Assembly: GCA_903913285.1 (NCBI GenBank)
Contig: CAIWKO010000045.1
Location: forward strand, 130,068 to 194,067
Length of the DNA stretch: 64,000 bases
Reading direction: 5' to 3'
DNA from: an uncultured Bacteroidales bacterium
GTDB taxonomy: Bacteria > Bacteroidota > Bacteroidia > Bacteroidales > CAIWKO01
Positions 52,162 through 60,438 of this stretch are shown here, piece after piece. Position 1 is the first letter of the stretch, and each line of letters opens with the position of its first letter. A program made the position numbers and the translations under genes. Under the pieces are notes generated by a model. The model did not search any database. It was not told where the DNA came from and worked only from the letters and a program-made list of their open reading frames with translations.

Positions 52162-54903
52162 TTATTCAACAATATAATTGAGTAATTTTGAGCTGTCGGA
52201 TACAATAAGGCTGGGAGTTTTGTCGCCAAACAAGAAATTTACTTCAATATCGGAATTTTCGATAGTATATGTTTTGGCTTCTTTTATGCCCATATTATTG
52301 ATAAATGCAAGCGAATTGTTGGAACGGACAGGATAAATAATATAAAATTTGGTCTTACCCAATTTAATATAGATAGGTTTACGGTCGGGTTCATATTTAT
52401 TGGGTGTTTCAAAGATTTTTCGCTTGAGATGATTATAAACAAATATTTTGCCCTGGTCAAAAAAGATAAAATCATTTTGAGAGTCGTTATTAAAATCGCC
52501 GTAAAGGAAATAATGATTCTCCGAAAAACGATTCACAGTAACTATATCGGTGTTTCCATTCGGGGAAATAAATATCAGTTTTCCTTTTCTGTCGCTGGTG
52601 AGCAAATATTGTTTTTTTCCATCAAAATAGTTAATAAAATTACTGTTTTTTGCTTTCAAAAATGCTTGTTTAGGCTTAAGGGTTTCGTTTCCTTTTCGGT
52701 CAAGGAAATAATTCTTCCCGTTTTTATCGGTAGCAATCAGCAATTCTTTTTTCCCCAGCTTTATAAATTCTACAGGTGAAGTGAGAATTGCCTGAGTAGA
52801 AAAATTATTCCATCCTGCGGTTGGCTTCCCATTAACAGAATAGTTGTATATTTTTTGGTTGTTGCAGGGAATGATGATGCGATAATTTTTATTGTTATCG
52901 AAATCAAAAACACTCATGCCCGTGCTGGTTTCAAATGGCAAAATAAACGAACTGATGTCGGATTGGCTTCCGTTGATATTGATGATAAAGATGCGGTCGG
53001 TAGTATTGAAAGCCAGATAACTTTGTTGATTTTTTAAAGTAATAACAAAAACCTTGCTTTTGGGTATCACCCCAATATGTTTTCGCCAGATCAAACCCCC
53101 GTTTTTGTTCAGCAAATACATATTCCCGCTGATATCGAACAAGGCAATTTTCTTAGTACTGTCAATCGGATCAAAAACGATGCTGGTTTTATTGTAAATG
53201 CTTGTATCGGCAATAAATTCCCAAATGGCAGGATTTTCTTCAATATAGTTGGCATTATGTTTCAGGTATCCGTTCAAATAATATTTATTGCCATCGTTTG
53301 AAAACTGAAAAGCTAAAGCCTGAAAGTTTCTCAAACTACTTTCGTTTTTTTCGAAATCCTTTCTCAATACCGGATTTAAAAGAGATAAGATCAAATCGAA
53401 GCTTTTTCGTATGTTGGCATAAAAGCAAAAGTTAGCTTTACCCGACACATTGTTGGCAAAACTCTTATAATTTTCGTTTTTATCGAGCGTTTTGCCTGAT
53501 AAATAACCCGAAATAAAAAGATTTAAAGATAAGGGATCTTGACCAAAGATCACATAATTGTTGATAGTGGTGTAATATGCTGAATCAAGAGGCGTAAAGG
53601 TTCTGCCGAAAAAATTATGTAACAATCCCGTAGCATAAAACTTCTTGATAGCAAATGTGTCCTGTTCTGATGCAAAATGTCTATTTGTAACACTCGATAT
53701 CGGCTCAATTATTTTTTGAAAATCATCAATATCATTTGTTTTAAAGATGGCATAATCTCTAAACGGCTCATCAACGTTTGGATTTTCAGTAATAACAAAG
53801 GCAAATTCATTCCCGAGCCGGTTTAAAATATCTTCTGAAATATCTTTCTGATAATTCGTATCATAAAAATCACAAATACTTTGAAAAGACCGTTTACGGA
53901 AATTAGTTTTTTGATAATCGGTAAAATCTTCAACGTATTTTTCAGTATTGCTCATGCCCCAGAAAAAGAATACTGCCGTGTTGTATGGACAAATTTTTGT
54001 TAGTGTGATTTCCTGCGGTGATTGATTATTGTAAACTTTGTGAAACAACTGATTTGTATCACCCGATAATGCATAACCATTAAAAAGCAGTTCTTCATTT
54101 TTCACAGTAACGTCAAGGCTTATCATATCTGTTGTCAACGAAATAAATTTTAATTCGCCTATTTTATTTTGTGCGGTAAATGGTTCTAGTAAATTGTCGA
54201 AATACGACATATTGATAAAAACATTGGCATCCACATTTTTCCCCGACATCGAGTTGAGCTTTTTAAAAGCTTTAACTTCTTCGATATTGATACCTGTTAT
54301 CAGAGCGCTTAAAGAAGTTTCAATAACACTCGGCGTTTCTCCGGCAATAAATATTCCCTGATAAACGGTGTAGGCAAAAAGAGTTTTAATGCCCGAACGG
54401 ATCTCAAATATTTCGTAATCCAGAAATTGGTGTTCAACAAAACTGTTACCAGCTGACAAATTGTTCTGAATAAAACCGCTTACCGTATTCTCTTCGTGCG
54501 GCCCACCAAGATTTATGGCAAACAGATATTTGTAAACGCCCCGGTCGGGAACCCAGGCCATATATAAAGGGTTTTTTGAAAATAGATCGCTTACGCTACT
54601 GTTCGTTGATGTGAGCGAATCTGAAAGTAAAAGTTTCGGTCGGAATTTATTAATAAAACTCAGGCATTGCAGTTCTTTCCAGATCTTATTTTTTTCGTCC
54701 ACATGTTTCCAAAGTTCTTTTAGATCATGGATTTCAACCAAACAAACGCTGCTTTCGGGTATGGCCTTTATGGCGGGAGTAACAGGGTCTTTTAATCGTT
54801 TGATATAAATATACCCGACAATACACAACCCGATTATTCCGAGTGCAACTAAAGAAATGATAATGTATCTTTTAATTTTCGATGGTTTGGACGGGTATAT
54901 CAT
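52162..54903 (-). CDS. DUF3352-like membrane-anchored protein with propeller-like C-terminal half
   Basis: This is a 913-residue protein with one N-terminal transmembrane helix (residues 13-34) and no cleavable signal. Residues about 40-560 resemble DUF3352 proteins (IPESSVCLVEIHDLKELWKH; NVFINMSYFDNL; LGNEFAFVITENPNVDEPF; YVIFGQDPLSLNLFISGYLS). Residues about 580-910 contain at least six similar beta-blade units (ALFDISGNMYLLNKNGGLIW; LLIATDKNGKNYFLDRKGNE; YLLTSDRKGKLIFISPNGN; NDSQNDFIFFDQGKIFVYN), which suggests a beta propeller facing the periplasm. Function unknown. It follows the RNase HII gene by 45 nt on the same strand and may be co-transcribed. Confidence 0.72.
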   Translation of the reverse strand: MIYPSKPSKIKRYIIISLVALGIIGLCIVGYIYIKRLKDPVTPAIKAIPESSVCLVEIHDLKELWKHVDEKNKIWKELQCLSFINKFRPKLLLSDSLTSTNSSVSDLFSKNPLYMAWVPDRGVYKYLFAINLGGPHEENTVSGFIQNNLSAGNSFVEHQFLDYEIFEIRSGIKTLFAYTVYQGIFIAGETPSVIETSLSALITGINIEEVKAFKKLNSMSGKNVDANVFINMSYFDNLLEPFTAQNKIGELKFISLTTDMISLDVTVKNEELLFNGYALSGDTNQLFHKVYNNQSPQEITLTKICPYNTAVFFFWGMSNTEKYVEDFTDYQKTNFRKRSFQSICDFYDTNYQKDISEDILNRLGNEFAFVITENPNVDEPFRDYAIFKTNDIDDFQKIIEPISSVTNRHFASEQDTFAIKKFYATGLLHNFFGRTFTPLDSAYYTTINNYVIFGQDPLSLNLFISGYLSGKTLDKNENYKSFANNVSGKANFCFYANIRKSFDLILSLLNPVLRKDFEKNESSLRNFQALAFQFSNDGNKYYLNGYLKHNANYIEENPAIWEFIADTSIYNKTSIVFDPIDSTKKIALFDISGNMYLLNKNGGLIWRKHIGVIPKSKVFVITLKNQQSYLAFNTTDRIFIININGSQSDISSFILPFETSTGMSVFDFDNNKNYRIIIPCNNQKIYNYSVNGKPTAGWNNFSTQAILTSPVEFIKLGKKELLIATDKNGKNYFLDRKGNETLKPKQAFLKAKNSNFINYFDGKKQYLLTSDRKGKLIFISPNGNTDIVTVNRFSENHYFLYGDFNNDSQNDFIFFDQGKIFVYNHLKRKIFETPNKYEPDRKPIYIKLGKTKFYIIYPVRSNNSLAFINNMGIKEAKTYTIENSDIEVNFLFGDKTPSLIVSDSSKLLNYIVE

Positions 54904-55545: not shown

Positions 55546-56241
55546 CTATTTGTTTACTTTACGCCTGAATGAAAACATCCTGGTGTGGGGGTGTATCTCT
55601 TTGCGACGTATCTGAAAAACATCTTCAAAGAAATTTTCAGGGCCGGTGTTGGTCGAAATGCCATACTCAAAACCGCATTCGGTTACTATCTTTATAATGT
55701 TCGAATTAATAGCTCCAAAAGGATAAGCAAAACTTATTATTTTCTTATGCAGTTTTTCTTCAATATCAGCCTTACATCCTGCAATTTCGTTGTGGGCTTC
55801 ATCCAAACTGAGTTTCTTCAAATCTTTATGATACATGGTGTGTCCGCCAAACTCAATTCCGTATTGATTCATTTCCGTTATCATTTCATCGTTCATCATA
55901 TCAATTGCGGGTTCTCCTTCAGCAATGCCCCATTCGTTGCGTTTCAAGCGCGTAACCAAAAATATCACTGCCTTAAAACCGAATTCTTTCAGCACAGGGA
56001 ACGCCGTTCTGTAATTGTCTTCATACCCGTCATCGAAGGTAATAATTACAGGTTTTTCGGGAATATTCCCCTTTGCAATATCTTCAAATGTAATTGCAGT
56101 AAAACCGGCTTTTTTTAAATACGACATTTGTTTGTAAAAATTCTTTTCGAACACATGTATTTTATGCCGGCCAATACTTTCGTTTTTTTTAACGATACGG
56201 TGATAGAGCAATACAGGGATGTTTGTGGTCGTCATTGGCAT
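55546..56241 (-). CDS. polysaccharide deacetylase (NodB homology)
   Basis: This is a 231-residue carbohydrate esterase 4-type protein. VIITFDDGYEDNYRTAF gives the two metal-binding aspartates, and HTMYHKDLKKL the His-x3-His triad part (GGHTMYH). FAYPFGAINSNIIKIVTECG is the third motif. It begins MPMTTTNIPVLLYHRI; the second Met (residue 3) is an alternative start. No signal peptide is visible. It removes N- or O-acyl groups from glycans. It stands directly before rnhB with no gap. The substrate is unknown. Confidence 0.9.
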   Translation of the reverse strand: MPMTTTNIPVLLYHRIVKKNESIGRHKIHVFEKNFYKQMSYLKKAGFTAITFEDIAKGNIPEKPVIITFDDGYEDNYRTAFPVLKEFGFKAVIFLVTRLKRNEWGIAEGEPAIDMMNDEMITEMNQYGIEFGGHTMYHKDLKKLSLDEAHNEIAGCKADIEEKLHKKIISFAYPFGAINSNIIKIVTECGFEYGISTNTGPENFFEDVFQIRRKEIHPHTRMFSFRRKVNK

Positions 56242-56275: not shown

Positions 56276-57502
56276 TCACGGACCGATATTCAGGTGTTTA
56301 CTCATTTTTGGGTCGAACAAATTCATTTCTTTTTCTTTCTTTTTATGATTTTTATGATTTGTTCGGGAAAACAAGTCCCACAAAACGCCACCGTGATGTC
56401 TGACTCTTTTATTTTTACTGCTGAAAGTATGTTGATGCATGGTATTTCTGTTGCGGGTTTTTCCACCGAAAGTTCCTGCATCAGTATCATGGGGTTTAAA
56501 CAACAGGAATTTTTTACCGACACGTTTTTTCTTTTGTTTGTAGCCGAATTCACCTGTTCTTCCTTTATGTCGGCCGCTGAATGTGTCCGAACCACCTCTG
56601 ATACGCTTATATCCTTTTAAATCGGCTCTTTTTTTGGTCACCTGTTTCTTTTTGGCATTGAAAGCAAATTGTCCTGACTGATGGTGATGCCTTACTCTGA
56701 ATGAACCGCTTTCCCGCTCACGTTTTTTCGTTCCGAATTGCAGGAACTTTCTTTTGGTAACGACATGATTGTGCTTTTTGTCAAAACGAAACATGCCCGA
56801 TTCGTTTCTTTTCCTGCCCGAAAAACTATCACTGTTTCGGTTTTTTCTTCCCGAAAATGTGCTTTTATTCACCACCCGATGCTTATGGTTGCTGAACCGG
56901 TTTTGTTTCCGGTCTTTTTTAACATGTCTCGAATATGAGTCGCCTCCCGAACTGTTATCTCCTTTATGTTTTTTGCGCGAGCTATACGAATCTTTGGTTT
57001 TTTGGCCTTTCAACCCGAAAGTGCTTTTGTTTACAACCCTTTCTTTCGATTTGCTGAATCGGTTTTGTTTCTGACTTTTTTTAGCACGATGCGAATATGA
57101 ATCGCCTCCCGAACTATTGCTTCCTTTATTTCTTTTTCGCGAACTGAACGTATCGTGGTCGCGTTTGCTTTTGGGCGATCCTTTGCTTACAACTCTGTCT
57201 TGAAATATACTGAAACGATGTCCCGACTTATTTTTCTTCTTCGGCGAAGAATAAGAGTCGTTCCCTTGTTGATGATTTGTGCCGCCATGCTTTCTTGCCT
57301 TATAGGTATCGCTGAATTTCCCTTTCTTTTGTGCCAAGCCCGAATGCTTCTCCACAGTTCTGTTTTGTTGTTTGCTGAATTTGAACTGAGTCTTTAATTC
57401 TCTTTTTTTGGGAGCAAATGAATCGGAAAAATCGTGATGACATGCACTTAAAAGTACTGAGAATAGTAAAAAAACAAATAGTACATGTCGTCTTTTGTTC
57501 AT
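56276..57502 (-). CDS. highly basic repeat lipoprotein, family unknown
   Basis: This is a 408-residue protein with a lipoprotein signal (LLSAC, Cys21). The mature part is one long series of about eight repeats of 36-54 residues. The pattern is an aromatic strand (RFSxxKxRVVNK), a short turn, then DSYSSRKKHKG or similar, with SSGGDSYS inserts in the first repeats. Lys, Arg, His and Ser dominate and acidic residues are rare, so the chain is strongly positive. The C-terminal part has WDLFSRTNHKNHKKKEKEM. It lies 23 nt after an M16 peptidase gene and ends the M16/SnoaL/M16 unit. Such a chain could bind LPS, DNA or acidic glycans at the envelope; that is inference. Confidence 0.75.
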   Translation of the reverse strand: MNKRRHVLFVFLLFSVLLSACHHDFSDSFAPKKRELKTQFKFSKQQNRTVEKHSGLAQKKGKFSDTYKARKHGGTNHQQGNDSYSSPKKKNKSGHRFSIFQDRVVSKGSPKSKRDHDTFSSRKRNKGSNSSGGDSYSHRAKKSQKQNRFSKSKERVVNKSTFGLKGQKTKDSYSSRKKHKGDNSSGGDSYSRHVKKDRKQNRFSNHKHRVVNKSTFSGRKNRNSDSFSGRKRNESGMFRFDKKHNHVVTKRKFLQFGTKKRERESGSFRVRHHHQSGQFAFNAKKKQVTKKRADLKGYKRIRGGSDTFSGRHKGRTGEFGYKQKKKRVGKKFLLFKPHDTDAGTFGGKTRNRNTMHQHTFSSKNKRVRHHGGVLWDLFSRTNHKNHKKKEKEMNLFDPKMSKHLNIGP

Positions 57503-57525: not shown

Positions 57526-58806
57526 TTATTTTTTTCCAACCACCAATTCAAACATGTTTTCTTCCATAAAATAGTTACGGGCAGTATCAAGCAATTCTTG
57601 TGGTGATATACTTTTTATAGTGTCCACCAGGTCGGAGTAATAGCTTTTGAAATTGATATTCAGTTCCAGAAGACTTTTAAAGCGTTCTGAGGTTTGAAAA
57701 GGACCGTCGAACGAACATAAGATACTTCCCGAAAGATATTTTTTCACCAGATCAAGTTCCTGTTCCGATATAGCCTCTGTTCTCAGTTTTCTTAGTTCAG
57801 CATATATTTCCTTTACGGCAGATTCACTAACATCAGACCCTACTTCCGAAATAATAAAAAATGCTGCCGACTCCTGAAAAGAAATTAGCGCTGAATATAT
57901 CCCGTAAGTATACCCCTTGTCTTCACGGATATTTTTCATCAATCGCGAACCGAAGTAACCCCCAAGGATGGTGTTTAAGATAAATAGTTTGTGATAATCC
58001 TCATGAGTTTTATTAATAGTGATGTTCCCGATTCGGATAGCCGACTGCACCGATTTGGGCATATCGATAAACTCTTTTTGATTGCCGGGGGTAATTGCCG
58101 GAAAAATGTTTTTTCGGGTGTTTTTTGAATGCATTTTGTATTTCCCGAAATACCGGTTCAGCAATGAAAGCATATTTTCGGGGAGCTTACCAGCGACAAC
58201 TATTTTACACGAATCGGGCCTATAATGTTGTTTGTGAAATTCAACCAACGAATCACGTTCTAAACGGTCGAAATCGGAAACGGCAATCATTTTTCCATAC
58301 GGATGTTCTTGCCCGAAAATTTGCTGGTTAAAGTTCATGGCAGCCAGTTCGCTCACTTTGCGAATGTCGTCCATATAGGCCTGCTTGCCTTTTTTGGCTA
58401 TGGTTTGCAGTTCGGTTTCGGGGAAAACCGGCGCGATGATGATTTCAGCAACTATAGGCAACACATCTTCCAGATGTTTTTTCAACATCGATATCGAAAC
58501 GATGCTGTTATCTTTATAGGCCATTTTACCCAGGTAGGCTCCGAAGTAATCGAGTTTTTCGGCAATTTCGAAGGCTGTGTAGCTTTGCGTGCCTTCCGAC
58601 AACATTTTGTTGGTGAACCTGGCCACCAGAGGTTGTTGCTGAAAACGGCCCCCGGCTTCGAACAGCATATCTATCTTAACGATATCCTGTTTGCCTGCAT
58701 TAAACATATAAACGGGTATGCCATTATCGAGCCGGGCAACTTCAGGTTCTGCTATTTCCAGCCGGTCTATCAGGTTCAGGGCAGGGGGTTTGGTTCTGTC
58801 AATCAT
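57526..58806 (-). CDS. M16-family peptidase homologue, likely inactive subunit
   Basis: This is a 426-residue protein with both M16 fold halves. Where active enzymes have HxxEH it reads VARFTNKMLSEGTQ, so the zinc site is lost. It keeps NIREDKGYTYGIYSALISFQ, the Arg-Tyr pair that forms the substrate pocket in M16B partner subunits. Such proteins pair with an active subunit (like mitochondrial processing peptidase or the PqqF-like pairs). The active partner is encoded at 59200-60438, with a SnoaL-like gene in between. The ATG overlaps the SnoaL-like stop by 8 nt. There is no signal peptide, so it is probably cytoplasmic. Confidence 0.88.
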   Translation of the reverse strand: MIDRTKPPALNLIDRLEIAEPEVARLDNGIPVYMFNAGKQDIVKIDMLFEAGGRFQQQPLVARFTNKMLSEGTQSYTAFEIAEKLDYFGAYLGKMAYKDNSIVSISMLKKHLEDVLPIVAEIIIAPVFPETELQTIAKKGKQAYMDDIRKVSELAAMNFNQQIFGQEHPYGKMIAVSDFDRLERDSLVEFHKQHYRPDSCKIVVAGKLPENMLSLLNRYFGKYKMHSKNTRKNIFPAITPGNQKEFIDMPKSVQSAIRIGNITINKTHEDYHKLFILNTILGGYFGSRLMKNIREDKGYTYGIYSALISFQESAAFFIISEVGSDVSESAVKEIYAELRKLRTEAISEQELDLVKKYLSGSILCSFDGPFQTSERFKSLLELNINFKSYYSDLVDTIKSISPQELLDTARNYFMEENMFELVVGKK

Positions 58807-59194
58807 GATGCTTGTTTATAATGTTAAATGCGGGACTATTGTCGGCATATACCTGCCAGAGTTTTATTTTGTTTTCGGCAATTACTGCTCTGAATGCAGC
58901 CGGAACTTTCCAATGCTTGCTGTTTTCTTCGGTCTTCAGGTTCTTATACGTTGCTTCTGCATAGCCAAGCAGAACGATGATATTCTCGTTTTCCAGAGTT
59001 TCCGCTATTTCGATGGTGTAATCGGGAAACATCTCAAAATACCCTTGCCAGGCATGTTTCATAGTATCTTTTCCTGCGAGTTTGTTGCCCTGCGAATCAA
59101 TAAACAGATGGTTATCGGTCATCAAATTGCAGATGGTATCAACATTCCGGCTATTGATGGCTGCAACAAAATCCAAAGCTGTGTTACGTTTCAT
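58799..59194 (-). CDS. SnoaL/NTF2-like domain protein
   Basis: This is a 131-residue protein from ATG 59194. An in-frame ATG at 59233 would overlap the upstream M16 gene by 34 bp and add 13 residues unlike the fold. NTALDFVAAINSRNVDTICN, DSQGNKLAGKDTMKHAWQGY and FPDYTIEIAETLENENIIVL show the cone-shaped NTF2 fold. Members include polyketide cyclases and many small isomerases or binding proteins; catalytic residues cannot be assigned. It lies between the two M16 genes with tight coupling on both sides (5-nt gap and 8-nt overlap), which suggests a role with them. Confidence 0.8.
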   Translation of the reverse strand: MKRNTALDFVAAINSRNVDTICNLMTDNHLFIDSQGNKLAGKDTMKHAWQGYFEMFPDYTIEIAETLENENIIVLLGYAEATYKNLKTEENSKHWKVPAAFRAVIAENKIKLWQVYADNSPAFNIINKHHD

Positions 59195-59199
59195 ATTGC

Positions 59200-60438
59200 T
59201 TATTTTTTTGCATGGTAATATAGTACCGAACAATTTGAATCAATAAGTATCTTTCGGGCAACATCTTGAATTTCCGAAGCGCTCACGCTAAGATAATTGT
59301 CGATTTCGGTATTAACAAGCTGCGTATCGCCCAACAGATTTGATACGCCCAGTTTCATCGCCCGGTTCAGTATGCTTTCGTTCGAAAATACCATGGCCGA
59401 TTCCAGTTTGTTTTTAATTTTATCCAGTTCCTTTTCGCCTATGGTGTTGTTTTTAATATGTTCAATTTCCTCGTCGATGGCTGCTTCGGCCTGTTCCAAG
59501 CTGATGCCCTTCATCGGTTTGCCGCTGAACACAAACAGCCCTTCGTCCATGTCGCTTGTAATGTATGCATCCAGCTCGCTGAAAAGTTTCTTTTCTTTCA
59601 CCAGAATATTGTAGAGGCGCGACGAATTCCCGTTCGATAGTATGTCCGAAAGCATATCGGTGGCATAAAACGCTGCATCTTTGCGGGCGCACATGTGATA
59701 AGCCTTGCACAACATATCAAACGGCACATCGCGTTCCACATGCAGGTTCTTACGTTCGGTCTGCACAGGCTCTTTGGGAATGTTCCGCACATAGACTTCG
59801 CCTTTCACGATAGGAGCAAACCACGTTTCGCAAAACTTCCTGACCTCATCTTCGGTGATGTTGCCGACAACCGACAAAATGGCATTCTTCGGATGATAAA
59901 ACTTTTTATAGAAGGTGCGCACATCGTCCATGGTGGCATTTTCAATGTGGCTGATGTCTTTGCCTATGGTCGACCAGCGATAGGGGTGTGTGGTATAAAC
60001 AAACGGGCGCATCAGCAGCCAGAAATCGCCGTAAGGCTGGTTCAGATAGCGTTGTTTAAATTCTTCTATCACCACGTTGCGTTGCACTTCGAGGCTTTTT
60101 TCGGAAAAGGCCAGATCGAGCATTCGGTCCGATTCAAGCCAAAAAGCGGTGTCCAGATTTTGGAACGGAATAGTAAGGTAAAAGTCAGTGAAATCGTTAT
60201 TGGTAAAGGCATTGTTTTCGCCTCCGGCTTTTTGCAGAGGTTCGTCGTATGAAGGGATATTCACCGAACCGCCAAACATCAGATGCTCGAACAAATGTGC
60301 AAAGCCTGTTTTGTCGGGATGCTCGTCGCGGGCGCCGACATTATACAATAGGTTCATGGCCACCATAGGGGTGGAGGTATCGGTGCTCACAATAACCTGC
60401 AATCCGTTTTCGAGTTTAAATTCCGAGTAATCTATCAT
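59200..60438 (-). CDS. M16-family zinc peptidase, active subunit
   Basis: This is a 412-residue protein with the inverted zinc motif HLFEH (His48, Glu51, His52) in TGFAHLFEHLMFGGS and the downstream Glu in the NDFTDFYLTI/LE region. The PFVYTTHPYRWSTIGKDISH block is typical of M16B peptidases. It has no signal peptide; its natural partner is probably the inactive homologue encoded at 57526-58806. These heterodimers cut small peptides inside a closed chamber. The promoter element at 60458-60465 precedes it. The three-gene unit continues into the basic lipoprotein gene. Confidence 0.92.
   Translation of the reverse strand: MIDYSEFKLENGLQVIVSTDTSTPMVAMNLLYNVGARDEHPDKTGFAHLFEHLMFGGSVNIPSYDEPLQKAGGENNAFTNNDFTDFYLTIPFQNLDTAFWLESDRMLDLAFSEKSLEVQRNVVIEEFKQRYLNQPYGDFWLLMRPFVYTTHPYRWSTIGKDISHIENATMDDVRTFYKKFYHPKNAILSVVGNITEDEVRKFCETWFAPIVKGEVYVRNIPKEPVQTERKNLHVERDVPFDMLCKAYHMCARKDAAFYATDMLSDILSNGNSSRLYNILVKEKKLFSELDAYITSDMDEGLFVFSGKPMKGISLEQAEAAIDEEIEHIKNNTIGEKELDKIKNKLESAMVFSNESILNRAMKLGVSNLLGDTQLVNTEIDNYLSVSASEIQDVARKILIDSNCSVLYYHAKK

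Follow-up and report, generated by a model that had tools for sequence, protein, structure and literature searches.

A gene for a predicted repeat lipoprotein downstream of two M16 peptidase genes

The window, by which we mean the whole 64,000-nt stretch of DNA analysed from an uncultured Bacteroidales bacterium, carries a gene for a predicted repeat lipoprotein on the minus strand at 56276–57502, an ORF of 408 aa with an ATG start. Two M16 peptidase genes recognized by Pfam, the nearer at 57526–58806 and the second at 59200–60438, lie directly upstream on the same strand, as the original prediction had it, and 23 nt separate the stop codon of the nearer one from the start codon of the repeat gene. 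A SnoaL-like ORF (58799–59233, minus strand) overlaps both M16 genes at its ends. The downstream neighbour is a polysaccharide deacetylase gene (55546–56241, minus strand; Pfam), and 52162–54903, also on the minus strand, encodes a protein of 913 aa that has DUF3352 and, towards its C-terminus, weak beta-propeller-like matches.

The N-terminus of the repeat protein, MNKRRHVLFVFLLFSVLLSAC, has the pattern of a signal peptide (residues 1–20; 57443–57502) with the lipobox LSAC and a predicted lipid-anchor cysteine, Cys21 (57440–57442), so the lipoprotein call holds at the level of pattern. The mature chain of 388 aa contains 27.6% K+R and 7.5% D+E, with a net charge of about +78 and a pI of 11.1. 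Its self-similarity is pronounced: autocorrelation peaks at 0.315 at a lag of 54 residues (99th percentile of 300 shuffles, −0.039), and the best 54-aa pair, residues 109–162 (57017–57178) and 163–216 (56855–57016), is identical at 34 of 54 positions, with 75% DNA identity over 137 nt.

Eight units can be assigned in the protein, each following the scheme aromatic-x-aromatic/Ser ... K-x-(K/R)-V-x-K-K, which matches the prediction of about eight basic repeats. Seven come from a repeat model built on distant relatives only and one (residues 97–108) from a pattern scan; the model reports eight domains, of which that at 387–394 (−3.0 bits) was left uncounted. Singly the seven counted matches are weak (1.6–10.9 bits), and an independent E below 0.001 was obtained for 279–293 only. 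From the N-terminus, all on the minus strand, the candidate hairpins lie at residues 40–52 (57347–57385; within model match 27–60, 1.6 bits), 97–108 (57179–57214; pattern scan only), 149–160 in the first copy of the duplication (match 132–170, 1.6 bits), 203–214 in the second copy (match 186–218, 5.4 bits), 238–251 (56750–56791; match 224–263, 5.9 bits), 279–292 (56627–56668; the best match, 10.9 bits), 319–331 (56510–56548; match 321–331, 1.7 bits, with AlphaFold strands at 319–322 and 327–330) and 358–370 (56393–56431; match 358–374, 5.2 bits). A Lys-rich end and conserved C-terminal tail follow at residues 387–408 (56279–56344), with LF at 395–396; the tail is also seen in alignments A4–A6. 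Two finer claims fared less well. The SSGGDSYS inserts, said to occupy the first copies only, occur twice, at residues 130 and 184, right before units 3 and 4. Of the KxRVVNK-like strand, the general K-x-(K/R)-V-x-K-K form was found, and the exact string RVVNK occurs only twice.

The gene is under purifying selection

A search of 98 genomes with the window protein found relatives in three genomes of the same genus. The repeat proteins of two relatives, G001 and G003, are 97.7% identical, with a pN/pS of 0.06 (0.09 for the neighbouring M16 gene and 0.10 for rnhB), indicating strong purifying selection on the gene at short range. Between the window and G001, identity is 51% for the repeat protein, 68% for the M16 neighbour and 77% for rnhB, and the corresponding pN/pS values, at saturated silent sites, are 0.38, 0.23 and 0.18; over long range the repeat gene thus diverges in length and sequence more quickly than the genes beside it. 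A low-complexity or spurious ORF might be suspected from the biased composition of the window protein and from a fold predicted at low confidence. Against this, the matched frames of the relatives contain no stop, the tail is conserved, and shuffle controls are beaten, which together with the pN/pS of 0.06 already refutes the idea; its probability is negligible. The window gene therefore encodes a real, selectively conserved protein.

A scattered family across one class

The family is present in at least 9 of the 393 genomes of the order and in 6 of the 294 other genomes of the class; these span at least four families of the order, plus two families elsewhere in the class. The order members (G000, which is the window genome, G001, G002, G003, G015, G030, G143, G238 and G307, from four families) were found by protein search, by growing profiles run on the 393 genomes and by inspection upstream of S46 peptidase genes. 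The last order search, at E 0.01, listed 13 of the 393 genomes; G118, G127, G262 and G347 were not counted, with the ORFs of G127 and G347 read and those of G118 and G262 unread. G030 was found by its locus before any profile, and its E value of 1.9e-28 was obtained with G030 already in the profile. For the class, the A4 profile, which covers the C-terminal part, was run against 295 genomes (294 besides the window's own) and listed 16, nine of which were not counted (G887 and G903 among them were read). A separate search, from which G057 (below) comes, listed 11 genomes, seven of them uncounted and unread. The six class members are G789, G802, G840, G871, G925 and G950, of which five belong to one family and the sixth to a different one. 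Those complete in one contig measure 523, 743 and 919 aa, and their repeat of about 39 aa, with the model consensus PKEEKDAFTTKVKKDDKPMYAYNEKKKQVTENGGLLVKKPKEEKD, reaches up to 13 copies in one open frame by pattern. Complete members of the whole family range from 173 to 919 aa.

Beyond the class, the widest profile found no match in 197 other genomes of the phylum, and an earlier, narrower profile found none in 394. Neither a tblastn search of plasmids with the G950 protein nor one of phages with the window protein gave a match. The family is scattered rather than universal, and its absence from the 197 genomes means that the phylum as a whole has no general need of it. The single match of a contig search, L010, was discarded, as it lies opposite another gene, presumably cobalamin adenosyltransferase-like.

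Homology was separated from composition in both directions. The A4 profile, which contains no class members, scored seven class-member sequences at 19.9–37.0 bits (best domain), with controls at no more than 10.1 bits in 100 residue shuffles per sequence and no more than 1.9 bits for reversed sequences. In the reverse test, a repeat model built from 46 class-member units only was used to search 18 sequences. It matched the window protein at a full-sequence E of 3.9e-4 (reversed, 0.39), and gave clear matches to G307, G015 and G238, all at E 5.1e-8 or better, and a fair one to G143 (E 0.0049). The proteins of G001, G003 and G030 scored no better than reversed controls (E 0.12–0.38) and that of G002 failed (E 18), so for these four it is the C-terminal profile that carries the case for homology with the class members.

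Several sequences outside or at the edge of these counts were also noted. The G057 protein (L190, 1084–1965, plus strand) scored 21.4 bits, with at most 6.1 in 200 shuffles, and is probably a further, tenth order member; it has an AYAQ-type signal instead of a lipobox, and by eye a possible polysaccharide deacetylase gene adjoins it. A basic, lipoprotein-like protein in G903 (L210, 5511–6215, minus strand), not counted as a member, has ANIESGxF repeats and a late GLFPPE and scored 15.0 bits, where 197 scored shuffles reached no more than 5.0. In G238 and G030 (L024, 2617–3255, minus strand; L030, 3803–4324, plus strand), the front half consists of Trp-rich GWAVDF repeats, and the basic unit and tail occupy the rear half only.

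Shared ends and variable charge

Of the 14 family N-termini, 12 have a lipobox with a small residue before the cysteine, 11 of them identified by pattern and one, LMGC of G925, by eye; the proteins of G143 (P at that place) and G789 (C or F) have no clean lipobox. All 12 complete C-termini, a set without the entries cut by contig ends (G002, G015, G802 and the front piece of G840), have a Lys-rich stretch and an LF 6–14 residues from the end. Four complete class-member tails end LDLF(G/N)(R/K)PMF, and G789 ends MDLFDKPMF. Judged from these sequences, the family is defined by an aromatic/Lys repeat, a Lys-rich end and an LF tail, and the window protein carries all of them.

Charge is not shared in the same way. 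The nine counted order members, two of them cut by contig ends, have net charges of +20 to +78; among class members, G789 has +6 over 507 aa and G925 has +54 over 743. Per residue, net charge across the family runs from +0.24 (G307) to +0.01 (G789). Strong positive charge is therefore a local feature that is not kept in the wider family. As the net charge of G789 is near zero, a purely electrostatic role cannot hold family-wide.

Comparison with known families

The absence of a named family, as originally predicted, was borne out: no Pfam, NCBIfam, PHROG or PDB match could be accepted. DUF1180 matched the window protein at E 0.042 and 14.7 bits, under a cut-off of 27.7, and a PDB profile match, to Cas11b, had an E of 0.22; both were rejected. 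For the repeat proteins, the Pfam and NCBIfam matches were dismissed as repeat artefacts. Five Pfam rows exceed their whole-protein cut-offs (Quaking_NLS and DUF6527 on G950, DUF6527 and Cas6_N on G840, FAINT on G789); because no single stretch passes, these are sums of weak repeat pieces. A stretch does pass for PROCT on G143, at E 0.01 and under the family's cut-off, and for an acetolactate synthase model on G840, at 32.5 bits against a cut-off of 970.

Four known systems invite comparison. The YD-repeat pattern of RHS proteins is Y-x-Y-D-x-x-G-R-L, which the family motif Y-x-Y-[DN]-x-x-K-K-x-V resembles; however, the family unit is basic and longer (about 39–54 aa), its predicted hairpins are isolated and form no shell, and a putative lipid anchor and LF tail are present. 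Pfam found no RHS/YD match in the window protein (E up to 1) or in ten sequences from nine relatives (E up to 0.1). Braun's lipoprotein, Lpp, is a helical coiled coil whose C-terminal lysine is linked to the wall, and is alike in idea only, with a lipid anchor at one end and a conserved binding end at the other; the family models have no long helix over the repeats, the length varies, and none of the 12 complete C-termini has a terminal lysine. NHBA belongs to another phylum, and the window protein, which has repeats, shows no C-terminal 8-stranded barrel in low-confidence models and no Pfam or PDB match. The two are alike in being lipoproteins with a disordered basic region, which in NHBA binds an anionic polymer (PMC7857515). 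Lipoproteins with the surface-export signal LES are of the same phylum, but no signal like the K-(D/E)2, SDDDD or SDDFE forms was seen at any of the 12 scored family N-termini. Judged from the open-access literature and family libraries, the family is apparently undescribed. A single odd ORF is now part of a family that shares a conserved tail and a defined repeat and has no accepted library match.

Neighbouring genes change with lineage

In G001 and G003 the repeat gene again lies directly downstream of an M16 gene and upstream of rnhB, and no polysaccharide deacetylase gene stands between the repeat gene and rnhB. M16 adjacency is thus found in three of the nine counted order members (G000, G001 and G003). 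In five others (G002, G015, G030, G238 and G307), from three families, the repeat gene lies divergently beside one for an S46 dipeptidyl peptidase; for G307 the link is a 141-nt overlap between the end of its contig and the beginning of one with an S46 gene. The G143 copy comes after metF. Upstream sequence is available for five of the distant loci (G789, G802, G840, G925 and G950), and in each of them the divergent gene on that side is RNase R-like (Pfam was run on two of the five). Downstream, a gene for an LD-carboxypeptidase (S66), an enzyme type of peptidoglycan recycling, begins 9 nt past the stop codon of the G789 repeat gene.

These arrangements raise the possibility that the protein serves an envelope peptidase encoded next door, S46 or M16, as partner or chaperone, or is its substrate, a reading that the divergent S46 genes of five order members from three families and the M16 genes of G000, G001 and G003 would favour. 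The neighbour changes, however, to metF in G143 and to an RNase R-like gene in the five distant loci, and S46 is common without the family. Among 90 S46 loci, some overlapping and with the already known linked loci left out, 71 could be oriented, and a single family member (G030) lay upstream; it was missed with a charge filter, which returned no member, and found without it. In the S46 tree, the five linked genes share a 16-leaf clade (support 0.96) with 11 genes that are unlinked, and form no clade of their own. Within the order the linkage to S46 is genuine, yet it is a local feature and does not define function; since neighbours differ by lineage (S46, M16, metF, RNase R), function is not tied to them, and we consider a peptidase partner unlikely.

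Other features of these loci were recorded. Look-alike outer-membrane-like proteins with no Pfam match (L203, 5164–5895, plus strand; L202, 7833–8723, plus strand; L206, 2–799, minus strand) sit downstream of three distant members. Downstream of rnhB in G003, an ORF of tandem 7-residue ALRSRFC-like units (L008, 327–689, minus strand) resembles a variable repeat array. An S46 gene of the window's own genome (G000:C10:35529–37657) is in two pieces with an internal TGA, either a broken gene or an assembly error.

A candidate outer-membrane tether

AlphaFold predicted the window protein (seven sequences in the alignment) as mostly unstructured, with a mean pLDDT of 45.9 and a pTM of 0.16, a hairpin at 319–330 and a weak helix at 373–395. 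For the last 240 residues of G789 (13 sequences), five hairpins were predicted, with 10-residue blocks at pLDDT 60–78; they are unpacked, and the model as a whole has a mean pLDDT of 56.4 and a pTM of 0.15. The models weakly suggest hairpins strung like beads along a flexible chain; predictions of this type can be led astray by tandem repeats.

Which side of the outer membrane the protein faces bears on its role. In published work on surface lipoproteins, the Bacteroidetes export signal consists of acidic residues behind the +1 cysteine, in the forms K-(D/E)2 in Capnocytophaga canimorsus, SDDDD in Bacteroides fragilis and SDDFE in Flavobacterium johnsoniae (PMC5080379). Two acidic residues at +2 to +6 occur at none of the 12 scored family N-termini, those with a small residue before the cysteine, a result with no positive control for the signal in this organism. 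The only other pattern-found lipoprotein in the window likewise has one acidic residue at +2 to +6. The missing signal weakly favours the periplasmic face; the evidence is weak because the signal varies by species (PMC5080379) and the other window lipoprotein also goes without it. As for type IX cargo, the Pfam library, which did pick up Por_Secre_tail in a neighbour of G925, detected none in the window protein or in ten sequences from its relatives. The S46 and type IX genes of related genomes suggest a Bacteroidota host.

Binding of the window protein to LPS, DNA or polysaccharide is possible, and the protein might instead be a surface polycation that points outward, binds eDNA, LPS or acidic polysaccharide and forms an adhesive or protective, NHBA-like coat. 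The net charge of +20 to +78 in nine order members and the disordered chain of the AlphaFold model would suit such a coat, as would the changing repeat number, which is common among surface proteins. NHBA offers a precedent, a surface lipoprotein whose disordered Arg-rich region binds heparin (PMC7857515). Yet the acidic export signal, scored with no positive control, is missing from all 12 scored N-termini, and distant members carry less charge per residue. Exposed proteins often evolve fast, unlike the G001/G003 pair with its pN/pS of 0.06. The cationic coat of the original prediction is unsupported as stated: with the charge local and the export signal absent, it is not the best reading, and we regard an outward-facing polycation as conceivable but doubtful.

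We favour, with a probability of roughly 0.38, a flexible multivalent outer-membrane tether, probably facing the periplasm, that binds an anionic envelope polymer and docks on a partner through its tail. The signal peptide and lipobox pattern would place the protein on a lipid anchor, most likely on the periplasmic face of the outer membrane, and the chain would consist of short, weakly predicted aromatic/basic beta-hairpins on flexible Lys/Ser/Gly linkers. The basic hairpins may bind an anionic polymer multivalently, either peptidoglycan or the lipopolysaccharide side; the conserved tail probably docks on a partner and would thereby fix the far end, so that repeat number would set reach. The anchor motif, repeats, tail, selection and length variation seen in these genes argue for a tether, as do a repeat and tail kept across distant families, the hairpins predicted for G789 and the missing export signal, and the span from 173 to 919 aa is as expected of a spacer. 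An acidic polymer as ligand would suit the strongly positive proteins of the window clade, with near-neutral G789 as a warning that charge is not the core function, and the S66 gene beside G789 is a hint of peptidoglycan at one locus. Against a tether stand the low confidence of both AlphaFold models, the lack of a clean lipobox in G143 and G789, a repeat model that does no better than reversed controls on G001, G003 and G030 and fails on G002, and the patchy occurrence of the family. A bolder version, improbable in our estimate, would be an undescribed class-wide tether in the role of Braun's lipoprotein, in which the number of hairpin beads sets reach and the LDLFGRPMF-type tail docks on a conserved partner.

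The same repeats could in principle build a self-assembling matrix, their aromatic and Gly/Ser/Lys-rich units forming an amyloid-like or condensate-like fibre or gel. Regular Y/F-x-Y/F strand repeats with flexible linkers and the DSYS, DTFS and GTFGG segments would fit such a matrix, but strong like-charge repulsion in the window clade, models without stacking (pTM 0.15–0.16) and the lack of a matching family make it very improbable.

Returning to the tether, if its tail docks on a fixed partner, it would offer a handle on how the outer membrane is held in lineages that may have no textbook tether. Even if the function proves dull, a family model would annotate junk-looking, assembly-breaking genes such as that of G840, which appears split between contigs C92 and C93 (L205 end, L204 start) with the break inside the repeats; repeats of such a kind break assemblies and may hide the family.
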